Shown: positions 44,429 to 48,379 of the stretch, in pieces | Numbering within the stretch: position 1 is the first letter of the stretch | Layout: the number at the start of each line of letters is the position of its first letter | NCBI RefSeq assembly: GCF_000014005.1 | Contig: NC_008009.1 | Location: 2,170,001-2,234,000 of the forward strand | Length of the DNA stretch: 64,000 nt | Direction: 5' to 3' | DNA from: Candidatus Koribacter versatilis Ellin345 | Lineage (GTDB): Bacteria > Acidobacteriota > Terriglobia > Terriglobales > Acidobacteriaceae | Notes under the pieces: generated by a model | The model's database searches: none | Told to the model about the DNA's origin: nothing | The model's input: the letters and a program-made list of their open reading frames with translations, nothing else | Made by a program: the position numbers and the translations under genes

Positions 44429-45685
44429 ATGTCCTCCAGCATCACAGCGCGTTCCATCGTAAGTCCTGCCGCCGCGCGCGTTACGCTGCTCATCCTCACG
44501 CTGCTCAACTTCTTTAACTACATCGATCGCTCAATCCTGTTCGCAGTGCAGCCGCAGGTGCAGGCGGAGTTCCATTGCAGTGACCGGCAGATCGGCTTGC
44601 TGACCTCCGCGTTTTTCTTCACCTACATGTGTTTTGCACCTTTCGTCGGTCCGTTGGCGGACCGGTTTACCCGCAAATACATCATGGCAATTGGGGCCAT
44701 CGTGTGGAGCGTGGCCACGCTGCTCACAGCCGTGACGCATAGTTACGACGTGCTGCTCTTCCGCCATGCCATTGTCGGCATTGGCGAGGCGACATTCGTC
44801 ACCATCACGCCGTCGTTTGTCTCCGACCTGTTTCCCGAAGAAAAGCGGGCGCGCATCATGGCCATCTTCTATATGGCCATTCCCGTGGGAACCGCGATTG
44901 GATACCTGGTGGGCGGATATCTCGGCCATCGCCACGGATGGCGAATGCCGTTCTACGTCTGCGCGATTCCCGGCATGATCATGGGTTTGCTGCTGCTGCT
45001 GGTGCCCGAGCCGGTGCGCGGATCCCACGACACCATCGTCGCGACCCACGAACGTTCGTCGTTCTTAGGACTCTTCCGCAATGGCGCGTTCTGGACTTGC
45101 TCGCTGGGCATGGCGATGATGACCTTCGCTGTCGGCGGGCTGCAGGTGTGGATGCCCACATTCCTCAACCGCATGCGCGAGATACCGCTCGACGCGGCCA
45201 ATTTCCGGTTCGGACTGCTCACTGTGGTCGGCGGGCTGGCAGCGGCCTTCGCTGGCGGATGGCTTGGCGATCGTATGCTGAAGCGCAGCGCGGGCGCCTA
45301 TTATCTCGTCTCCGGGATTGGTATGGCCGTGTGCCTGCCCTTCATGATCGTCGCGATTACGGCGAAGGGCCCGATTATGTACGTCGCAATCCTGTTGGCG
45401 GAGTTCTTCATCCTGCTCAATACTGCGCCATTGAATGCCGCGCTGGTGAACTCGGTCTCAGCGAACATCCGTTCGACGGCGGTAGCCGTGAACCTGTTCA
45501 CCATCCATCTGCTCGGGGATGCGTTCTCGCCAACGATCATCGGCTGGATCTCCGACAAGACCAACCTTCAGGTCGGTTTCATCCCGACGGTCGTCGCGGT
45601 TATCCTTTCTGCTGTGATCCTCTTCATTGGTATTCGCACTGCTCCCAAGATCAGCATCGCGGGTTCGACTGGCGCCCACGCATGA
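44429..45685 (+). CDS. MFS transporter (spinster-like)
   Basis: The 418-residue protein has 12 predicted transmembrane helices and MFS signatures: FNYIDRSILFAVQPQVQAEF, FVGPLADRFTRKYIMAIGAI (motif A) and AIVGIGEATFVTITPSFVSD, which is typical of spinster-type sugar/lipid transporters. The central loop and C-terminal half (GWLGDRMLKRSAGAYYLVSG) are normal. Its TGA stop overlaps the start of a GT2 glycosyltransferase gene, implying coupled function, possibly export of a glycolipid or isoprenoid. The substrate is unknown. Confidence 0.9.
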   Translation: MSSSITARSIVSPAAARVTLLILTLLNFFNYIDRSILFAVQPQVQAEFHCSDRQIGLLTSAFFFTYMCFAPFVGPLADRFTRKYIMAIGAIVWSVATLLTAVTHSYDVLLFRHAIVGIGEATFVTITPSFVSDLFPEEKRARIMAIFYMAIPVGTAIGYLVGGYLGHRHGWRMPFYVCAIPGMIMGLLLLLVPEPVRGSHDTIVATHERSSFLGLFRNGAFWTCSLGMAMMTFAVGGLQVWMPTFLNRMREIPLDAANFRFGLLTVVGGLAAAFAGGWLGDRMLKRSAGAYYLVSGIGMAVCLPFMIVAITAKGPIMYVAILLAEFFILLNTAPLNAALVNSVSANIRSTAVAVNLFTIHLLGDAFSPTIIGWISDKTNLQVGFIPTVVAVILSAVILFIGIRTAPKISIAGSTGAHA

Positions 45686-46869
45686 TTTGGTGGCACGCGC
45701 ATTGGGAGGCGCTCGTCGCCTTCGCGATTGGCTTGGTATGGCTCTCGCGTCTGCTTGCCGCGTCGCGTGGCATGCCGAAGCTCGCAGAGATCTCTCGTCC
45801 AGAGTGGGACCTGCGGCCTGATCCCGCGCCGCGTGTGAGTATCGTGGTTTGCGCGCTGAACGAGGAAGGGAAGATTGAGCCGGCGCTACGCTCGCTGCTG
45901 GAACTGGATTATCCCGATTACGAAGTTGTGGCGGTGGACGACCGCTCGACGGATCGCACCGGCGAAATCATGGACCGCATCGCCGAGGAGTATCGCGCCA
46001 ACGCGCATCATCACTTGCGCGTCGTTCACGTCACCGAGTTGCCGCCGGGCTGGCTCGGCAAGGTTCACGCTATGTGGAGTGCGACCCGCGTCGCGGATGG
46101 CGACTGGATCCTGTTTACCGATGCCGACGTGGTCTTTCAGAAGGAAACTCTACGCCGCGCGATCGCTTACGCAGAACGCGAGCGCGCCGATCATGTCGTC
46201 CTGTTTCCGACGATGCTGATGTACACTTGGGACGAGCGCATGATGATCGCATTCTTCCAGGCGATGTTCGTGTTTGGGCATCGTCCATGGAAGACCGCCG
46301 ACCCGAAGTCGCGCGACCACATGGGCGTCGGCGCGTTTAACCTCATCCGCCGCAGCGTCTACGAGAAGATCGGTACCTACGCGCGGATGAAGATGGCCGT
46401 GGTGGACGACATGAAGCTCGGCGAGATCGTAAAGAAGGAAGGTTACGCGCAACGCAACGTCTTCGGCCGCGACCTCATTCAGTTACATTGGCATTCCGGA
46501 GCGCTCGGAGTCGTGCGCGGGCTAACCAAGAACTTCTTCGCCATCCTGCGCTTCAATCCTTTCCTTACGCTTGGCGTGATCCTCGGCATGCTGCTCTTCA
46601 ATCTCACGCCGTTTGTCGGGGTCTTCCTGACGCACGGATGGGCGCGCGCGGGGTACGCGCTGGCCTTGGCTTCGATTGCCGGCATTTACTACGGAATGTC
46701 GGACCGCTCCACGATTCCGTGGTATTACGTGGTGCTGCATCCAGTCAGCACGGTGCTCTTCGCGTACACCGTGGGGAGATCGATGGTGGTCACGCTGGCG
46801 CAGGATGGGATTACATGGCGCGGAACGCATTACTCGCTCAACGAGCTGCGGAAGGGCGTAGACGTTTAG
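45682..46869 (+). CDS. GT2 family glycosyltransferase, membrane-anchored
   Basis: The 395-residue protein starts at ATG 45682, overlapping the MFS stop by four bases. It has an N-terminal helix (LVAFAIGLVWLSRLLA) and a GT-A domain with VSIVVCALNEEGKIEPALRS, EVVAVDDRSTDRTGEIM, LPPGWLGKVHAMWSA, the DxD in LFTDADVVFQ, GVGAFNLIRRSVYEKIG and a catalytic-base DDMKLGE. Three C-terminal helices follow. The LPPGWLGK-type motif is seen in HpnB/CrtQ-like enzymes that modify hopanoids or carotenoids, but the acceptor is not certain. Confidence 0.9.
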   Translation: MIWWHAHWEALVAFAIGLVWLSRLLAASRGMPKLAEISRPEWDLRPDPAPRVSIVVCALNEEGKIEPALRSLLELDYPDYEVVAVDDRSTDRTGEIMDRIAEEYRANAHHHLRVVHVTELPPGWLGKVHAMWSATRVADGDWILFTDADVVFQKETLRRAIAYAERERADHVVLFPTMLMYTWDERMMIAFFQAMFVFGHRPWKTADPKSRDHMGVGAFNLIRRSVYEKIGTYARMKMAVVDDMKLGEIVKKEGYAQRNVFGRDLIQLHWHSGALGVVRGLTKNFFAILRFNPFLTLGVILGMLLFNLTPFVGVFLTHGWARAGYALALASIAGIYYGMSDRSTIPWYYVVLHPVSTVLFAYTVGRSMVVTLAQDGITWRGTHYSLNELRKGVDV

Positions 46870-46874
46870 CGGCT

Positions 46875-47312
46875 CTACACAAACACAATCGGGTTCCTCT
46901 GCTCCTGCGCAGCCCTCACCAGTACCGACATATCTTCCAGAAACTTGGCCGTGATTTTCGAGGCGCGCGAGCCAAGGCGGTCTTTGGCCGATTGCAGTTC
47001 CACATCAAGCGGAATGAGCTCCGATTGTTCGACGATGTCGCCACTGTGCGAGTAATCGTAGAGCACCCGATCCGTAAGAACGGATTCAGCGGCCCCCAGC
47101 ATGGGGCCGAGTTCCTTCGATACTTCGACGATCTCGTGCGAAGTGCCCAGCTTGATGCGGACTGCTTGCCGCTCCTCGCGAGGGTGGACCTTCTTTTTTT
47201 CCGGATCGGTGAAGTAAATGGCTCCCGTGCGGACGTCAACCTCGGCGCCTTCCTTCTCCATGTCGAAGGGTAGGTTCTCCTTTGCGCGATAAACCACGGC
47301 AATCAAGCCCAT
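46875..47312 (-). CDS. Hypothetical protein
   Basis: The 145-residue soluble protein begins MGLIAVVYRAKENLPFDMEK, with acidic patches (VDVRTGAIYFTDPEKKKVHP) and a C-terminal helix (DVELQSAKDRLGSRASKITA, LEDMSVLVRAAQEQRNPI). It has no signal peptide or Cys motif. I recognise no family. It lies 33 bases after the OB-fold protein gene on the same strand and may be the last gene of that unit; it is convergent with the glycosyltransferase. Confidence 0.65.
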   Translation of the reverse strand: MGLIAVVYRAKENLPFDMEKEGAEVDVRTGAIYFTDPEKKKVHPREERQAVRIKLGTSHEIVEVSKELGPMLGAAESVLTDRVLYDYSHSGDIVEQSELIPLDVELQSAKDRLGSRASKITAKFLEDMSVLVRAAQEQRNPIVFV

Positions 47313-47345
47313 GAACGCACCTCGTCTCAGGACATTGATTGCAGT

Positions 47346-47855
47346 CTATTCCGGTACCGAGTCGTCGTTCATGGGATCCGCCTGGTCCTGCAGCGTGCGT
47401 TTCGTTTTGGAACGCTTGGCCTTCTTCCCATGGAAGCTGCCGGCGCTGAAGTTGCCGTGGCGCGCAACGTCGTAATTCTTCGGCAGCGGCGGGATGTGCC
47501 AGGCGATTTCGCCGTGGATTTGCGAAGCCTCGCTCAGCACAATCTCCGGACGCCCCTGGTAGAGCTTGATCAGACCGTCGATTTCGATCTCCTGCTCGGC
47601 AAGGGTGCGGACGTCGCCGATGTCCTCAAGCTTGGAAGGGAAGACCACAACGGTAAACGGACAGAGTTGGTAGTTCTCACAGAAGTTCAGGTAATGGGTG
47701 CCGCTGGCGCTGGCGGTCACCTTCAGCACACGTCCGCGAATGCACACGATTTCGCCAATGTGTTCGGGAGCTTTATCAATGGGATAGCAGTCGGCGCGCA
47801 GGCAAATGGCGCTGCCGAAGCACAGCGCCACGCACAACAGGGCCCGGGTCAGCAT
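47346..47855 (-). CDS. Secreted OB-fold-like protein
   Basis: The 169-residue protein has a signal peptide (RALLCVALCFGSAICLRA). A compact beta-rich domain follows, resembling an OB fold: EIVCIRGRVLKVTASASGTH, LCPFTVVVFPSKLEDIGDVR, EIEIDGLIKLYQGRPEIVLS. Four Cys in CYPID, EIVCIRG and CENYQLC may form disulfides. The tail is basic (HGKKAKRSKTKRTLQ). Its ATG overlaps the stop of the upstream AhpD/CMD-family gene (TAATG), so the two are translated together. Function is unknown. Confidence 0.75.
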   Translation of the reverse strand: MLTRALLCVALCFGSAICLRADCYPIDKAPEHIGEIVCIRGRVLKVTASASGTHYLNFCENYQLCPFTVVVFPSKLEDIGDVRTLAEQEIEIDGLIKLYQGRPEIVLSEASQIHGEIAWHIPPLPKNYDVARHGNFSAGSFHGKKAKRSKTKRTLQDQADPMNDDSVPE

Positions 47856-48379
47856 TATTTCGTAGGTTCCATCTTCAGCACATCGTTAAAGCGGTTGAAG
47901 TAGTTGAAGAGCCCGATCGCCGCCGCGAGCTCGATGATCTGGCCTTCGTCATAGTAGCGGCGCAATTCGGCCCAGAAGGCGTCGTCCACCTCGTGGGGGC
48001 GCTGTGTTTCGCGTTCGGCCAATTCGAGGGCTGCTTTCTCGGCATCCGTAAAGTCAGTGCGATTGCGGAAGTTTGCGAGGTCGGCGATTTGTTCCTTCGA
48101 CCAGCCGTGCTTTTCTGCCAACTGGCAGTGGGAGTTCAGTCAATACTCGCAATGATTGAGCTGCGAGGTGCGAACGATGACCAACTCTTTCAGCTTTGGG
48201 CCGATGGTGCCGGTCTCCATAACCGCCCGGAAATGCGCGATCATAGTCCTGAGGATCTCGGGCCGATGCGCGACCGTCCGAAACATGTTCGGCACGTTCC
48301 CGCGGACCTTCATAAAGTGGTCGTAGATCTCGCCGGTGGGCGCGTCGACTTCCGATTTGTCGAGACGTCGAATTCTCAT
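47855..48379 (-). CDS. AhpD/carboxymuconolactone decarboxylase-family protein, probable selenoprotein
   Basis: Two frames join at an in-frame TGA (48142-48140) to give a normal 174-residue CMD/AhpD-like protein. Before it: PKLKELVIVRTSQLNHCEY; after it: LNSHCQLAEKHGWSKEQIAD. The family active site is C-x-x-C-x3-H, and TGA replaces exactly the second Cys (Cys77-Glu-Tyr-Sec80-Leu-Asn-Ser-His84). A hairpin with a G-containing loop starts 11 bases after the TGA. AhpD-like CxxU proteins have been predicted before. ATG 48379 has AGAGG five bases upstream. Such thiol/selenol proteins reduce peroxides or act in disulfide exchange. The alternative is a nonsense mutation or sequencing error. Confidence 0.8.
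48115..48142 (-). promoter_or_regulatory. UGA-Sec codon and bacterial SECIS-like hairpin
   Basis: The mRNA reads UGA (48142-48140), 11 bases, then stem CUGCC (48128-48124), loop AGUU (48123-48120) and stem GGCAG (48119-48115). Sixteen bases separate UGA from the loop, and a G is second in the loop. Both fit published bacterial SECIS criteria (loop 16-37 bases after UGA, G among the first two loop bases, at least four upper-stem pairs), at the short end of the range. Confidence 0.6.

Follow-up and report, generated by a model that had tools for sequence, protein, structure and literature searches.

AhpD-like selenoproteins with a CxxU active site belong to COG2128 (YciW)/TIGR01926 and have already been catalogued, mostly from metagenomes (PMC13188914; PMC9312934; as 'AhpD-like 1' in PMC2398784). 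The available text of a 2006 survey gives two AhpD-like cases and four selenoproteins of Acidobacteria, and places families of fewer than five members, AhpD-like included, only in Deltaproteobacteria and Clostridia (PMC1794560). The gene described here is, on the basis of that placement in the available text, apparently absent from the survey's list. The bacterial SECIS consensus comprises a stem of 4–16 bp, a loop of 3–9 nt that has G within its first two positions, a distance of 16–37 nt from the UGA and a minimum free energy of ≤ −7.5 (PMC13188914). Among the Cys-containing relatives, PA0269 is a weak H2O2 reductase with a proton relay formed by E36, C48, Y50, C51 and H55 (PMC3141380), and Mycobacterium tuberculosis AhpD is an adaptor for AhpC.

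We analyzed a 64,000-nt stretch (the window) of the Candidatus Koribacter versatilis Ellin345 genome, in which a model-made annotation (the original prediction) had proposed a selenocysteine (Sec) in an AhpD-like protein and had pointed to a precedent for the family, which the catalogues above provide. The window protein shares with the AhpD-like CxxU family the subfamily, the CxxU motif with Sec in the second position and the alternation between Sec and Cys, but the gene represents an Acidobacteriota branch and its putative SECIS is unlike that of all orthologues examined. PA0269 (2o4d/2ijc) and M. tuberculosis AhpD have a similar CMD fold, but both carry Cys where Sec is predicted in the window protein. 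The protein family is already known, and the unexpected part is the apparent replacement of the SECIS. In a literature search that was not exhaustive, we found no description of a SECIS replacement of this kind and no paper naming Koribacter together with a selenoprotein.

An AhpD-like gene with a single in-frame TGA

The gene occupies positions 47855–48379 of the reverse strand and codes for 174 amino acids, from an ATG at 48379, preceded by the RBS-like AGAGG, to a TAA at 47857–47855. As predicted, the AhpD-like frame is interrupted only once, by a TGA at codon 80 (48142–48140), which coincides with the second Cys of the C-x-x-C-x3-H site and gives the active-site motif C77-E-Y-U80-L-N-S-H84. 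Codon 80 corresponds to Cys51 of PA0269 and Cys133 of M. tuberculosis AhpD. The predicted resolving Cys is encoded by the TGC at codon 77 (48151–48149) and is present in 34/34 Sec homologues. The overlap with the next gene was also correctly called: the TAA shares one base with the ATG at 47855 (TAATG).

The protein belongs to the CMD domain family (PF02627, 69.1 bits; cut-off 23) and to the 'peroxidase-related enzyme' family (TIGR01926, 90.4 bits; cut-off 81.8). The NCBI models for the YciW-related (seleno)protein (NF053654, 86.7 vs. a cut-off of 310) and for AhpD_rel_CFYUT (NF041238, 36.5 vs. 175) did not reach their thresholds. Because these curated seleno-models miss the gene, ordinary gene calling is expected to split it.

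The protein beyond the TGA is under strong purifying selection. Codons 93–174 show a dN/dS of 0.03 relative to the sister gene (L052). On the window's terminal branch, which is shorter than the sister's, 2 non-synonymous and 16 synonymous codon changes accumulated after the TGA, similar to the 3 and 20, respectively, before it. With a site ratio of 194:52, neutral drift would have produced ∼60 non-synonymous changes; the 2 observed argue that a full-length product was probably required throughout most, if not all, of the window branch.

Selenocysteine decoding in the genome

The genome, a single contig of 5,650,368 bases, contains the complete Sec-decoding set that the original prediction had proposed to look for: selA (560 bits), selB (361), tRNA-Sec (66; selC) and selD (363). 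The selD gene itself carries one in-frame TGA, followed by a SECIS of 8 bp with loop GGU, whose geometry and position are those of the SECIS of the family described below. At least three formate-dehydrogenase-like genes and at least three CMD genes with CxxU are further likely selenoprotein genes, and these numbers are lower bounds. Given this machinery and the other likely selenoprotein genes with a TGA, the organism appears to read UGA as Sec.

The second CMD/peroxidase-related selenoprotein family of the genome (L148, 3835282–3835845, forward strand) has the motif CFYU-IESH. Its homologues (L153–L182) carry the TGA in nearly all loci examined, and its SECIS has the loop AGUU in 28 Sec genes, within the nearly invariant hairpin ACGCAGAGUUUCUGCGU. 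Three formate-dehydrogenase-like genes (L149, L150 and L151, at 542097, 1082286 and 2712751) have one TGA each, followed by a hairpin with a GGUC or GUC loop. A CMD gene with CxxU at 4613836–4614048 (forward strand; L147) is accompanied by the hairpin AUUCUGCC-GGU-GGCAGAAU, and another at 2034023–2034274 (forward strand; L146) is without an obvious G-loop hairpin.

Sec and Cys forms among the homologues

Searches covering 396 genomes from the phylum, together with a named genome collection, yielded 110 homologous loci, of which 105 were distinct. Alignment of the homologues revealed the Sec/Cys alternation that the original prediction had anticipated: codon 80 is TGA in 34 of the 105, the window gene included, and TGC or TGT in the other 71. 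The relatives are thus not confined to Cys codons, and the nearest one (88% identity) has the TGA. The 34 TGA homologues always keep the first Cys and have no stop elsewhere, whereas in many Cys homologues Thr replaces the first Cys (TxxC). Together these observations make Sec at codon 80 well supported by comparison of the sequences.

SelA scored over the cut-off in the genomes of 34/34 Sec genes and in 11/40 of the Cys genes tested (Fisher p 7.6e-12, an association confounded by phylogeny). In an independent-pairs test of Sec against selA, the independent changes were too few for significance. A tree was built without the Sec site and the SECIS columns, with one distant TxxC row as outgroup. 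It places the window gene among the Sec forms, which branch off at various points near the base of the sampled set. Most Cys forms fall into two derived groups, and TxxC emerges from within CxxC, although support is weak for many of the inner branches. This layout suggests that the Sec form appears to be ancestral in the sampled Acidobacteriota, with at least two Sec-to-Cys conversions, a direction that would run against the reported bacterial trend from Cys to Sec. With this gene, the soil phylum Acidobacteriota joins the sources of AhpD-like selenoproteins, and it is a rich one. Relatives that now have TxxC proteins (L028–L034 and L076–L131) are mostly without selA, and in these the resolving Cys was lost as well, after the Sec-to-Cys change.

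The family SECIS is broken in the window gene

The other 33 Sec genes share a SECIS with a 7-bp stem and an invariant GGC loop at +21 to +23 after the UGA. The stem is complete (7/7 pairs) in 32 of them and has 6/7 pairs in one; overall, 99.6% of the cells are paired, and compensatory changes on both sides are found in 6 of the 7 pairs. The covariation score was 0.62, compared with 0.25 after shuffling and ≤0.22 in slid controls. At the same site, the Cys homologues are 32% paired, like the slid controls.

In the window gene, the SECIS that is shared by its acidobacterial Sec orthologues (a property of the clade, not a published family-defining feature) is absent. At the corresponding site (48126–48110, with the GGC loop expected at 48119–48117), only 2 of the 7 pairs remain possible, which makes the gene the sole outlier among the 34. 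Scored with a covariance model for the family SECIS, it reached 10.4 bits; the range was 62–72 bits among the other Sec genes that were scored and 9–18 bits among Cys genes. When the model was run on the gene's own genome, the best match reached 18.3 bits (E 0.07), suggesting that the model is specific to the family and that it finds no convincing intact copy there. The 3′ arm of the window site still retains the signature AGAA--GCACGG of the sister SECIS, so the ancestor of the window gene probably had the canonical element.

A putative replacement hairpin

A different hairpin, CUGCC-AGUU-GGCAG, is present at 48128–48115. The original prediction had described a 5-bp stem that starts 11 bases past the TGA and encloses the loop AGUU, and in this it was accurate, but the element is not the SECIS of the family and is not homologous to that of the gene's own orthologues. 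Its loop (48123–48120) lies at +17 to +20, starting 4 nt nearer the UGA than the family loop and at exactly the distance seen in the L148 family. The proposed agreement with bacterial SECIS rules held for stem, loop, G position and spacing (5 bp; AGUU, whose second base is G and third U; 16 nt between UGA and loop). The spacing is at the lower limit of the consensus, however, and the energy is at or just short of its limit: −6.8 kcal/mol for the bare hairpin and −7.9 kcal/mol once it is extended by two bases at either end, when compared with the published ≤ −7.5.

Agreement with generic rules counts for little by itself. A permissive SECIS rule (stem ≥5 bp) was also passed by 43/75 Cys homologues (57%) and by 83% of synonymous re-codings, and was dropped as too permissive. 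We then used a tight rule (stem ≥5 bp, loop of 3–5 nt, G[GU], with the G at index 20–23, where the U of UGA has index 0), which 34/34 Sec homologues and 0/71 Cys homologues satisfied. At equal stability, 0.8% of synonymous re-codings and 0.6% of random same-site substitutions satisfied it, and at any stability about 5% of either; these probabilities are indicative, as the rule was framed after the window had been seen, although its range derives mainly from other Sec genes in the genome.

The new 5′ arm, CTGCCAG, matches exactly, as its reverse complement, a CTGGCAG that lies next to this site in the sister gene (88% identity). One local template switch would account for five substitutions, and ∼1% of random draws do equally well. 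Three further substitutions (C21U, C30A and G31A) are superimposed on this proposed event.

On sequence evidence, the window gene is probably a real AhpD-like (COG2128/TIGR01926, CxxU) selenoprotein gene with a replaced SECIS. A cluster of changes would have destroyed the ancestral SECIS in the window lineage; these changes are best explained by one short template switch, in which CTGGCAG would have been written in reverse into the 5′ arm, and the resulting hairpin CUGCC-AGUU-GGCAG would have taken over as SECIS. An AGUU loop at +17 to +20 would presumably have been recognized already by SelB in another CMD selenoprotein. SelB and Sec-tRNA would then read UGA-80 as Sec. That one and the same template switch broke the SECIS and made the rescuing hairpin, moving from a GGC loop at +21 to +23 to an AGUU loop at +17 to +20, is a more tentative proposal, which we regard as possible but somewhat doubtful. 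If true, it would imply that a SECIS had been turned over, with Sec kept, among orthologues whose proteins are still 88% identical. A SECIS that was broken and replaced would be a natural experiment on the tolerance of SelB to changes in loop and spacing and on SECIS turnover in evolution. Since Sec insertion would depend here on a different, apparently newly formed hairpin, the case for the window gene itself is weaker than that for the family.

Alternative explanations

The main rival to a replaced SECIS is a broken one. The window gene would then be a recently broken selenoprotein gene, whose SECIS was lost to a local mutation and in which the UGA mostly terminates, leaving a 79-amino-acid fragment, and the 5-bp hairpin is incidental. 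The collapse of the canonical stem, the model score in the range of the Cys homologues and the position of the gene as the only outlier among the Sec genes are all consistent with this reading. So are the amino acid changes at positions 82, 85, 86 and 90 on the window branch; V86Q and R90K shift towards the residues of Cys homologues, which would fit a simple release from the SECIS constraint. The substitution pattern in the C-terminal codons, however, is far from neutral drift and, as a rough estimate, leaves room for a functionless period of at most ∼1/10 of the branch, yet three substitutions already overlie the proposed switch. The new hairpin is also unlikely to have arisen by chance. We consider a broken gene unlikely. 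Sec insertion guided by some other fold, for instance a longer hairpin at 48126–48100 with loop AGAAAA, is more improbable still. That hairpin has the lowest energy of all folds of the local RNA (−13.4 kcal/mol), hence it is more stable than the AGUU hairpin, and it has a G second in the loop, but its loop is farther from the UGA (index 26–31) than those of the genome's clear G-loop SECIS elements (20–25), and the RNA of the sister L052 has competing long folds as well, although its SECIS is conserved.

The changed patch might have come from outside the gene: gene conversion from a Cys form may have introduced it, given the LNSHTQLA of L054/L056/L059. The window DNA is not close to these three genes, however, and a Cys donor would be expected to bring TGC, whereas codon 80 is TGA and the signature of the sister persists in the 3′ arm. 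That same signature, and the position of the gene among the Sec forms in the tree, also speak against the TGA being a sequencing error or a chance nonsense mutation in a Cys gene. The SECIS region does resemble that of Cys homologues, but the sister genome (87–88% identity) and 32 others carry TGA at the matching codon, and a TGA common by descent makes a sequencing error implausible. We give this explanation hardly any credence. Thus, a selenoprotein gene with a replaced SECIS remains the preferred reading.

Predicted fold and gene neighborhood

An AlphaFold model of the protein (pLDDT 94.6) matched the peroxidase-related CMD structure 2prr in Foldseek with a TM score of 0.88. In the alignment, the five PA0269 relay residues (E, C, Y, C, H) are matched, with the same spacing, by E65, C77, Y79, U80 and H84. 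The product would be an all-helical CMD-fold thiol/selenol peroxidase-like enzyme. By analogy, Sec-80 would attack the (hydro)peroxide and C77 would resolve, with peroxidase activity and substrate inferred from the family. A new Cys, C85 (codon 85, 48128–48126), adjoins the active-site His, five residues past the Sec; among near relatives it is found in the window protein alone, and the others have Thr or Ser.

The downstream gene (47346–47855, reverse strand), whose start overlaps the selenoprotein stop, codes for a probably secreted protein of 169 amino acids. A homologue of it is also located 3′ of the gene in 12 related loci, and in the sister L052 the overlapping start is likewise present, as ATGATG. 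In the window, genes for an MFS transporter, a glycosyltransferase and the 169-amino-acid protein adjoin the selenoprotein gene (44429–47855), and these three are found near it in several related genomes too, indicating a conserved neighborhood.
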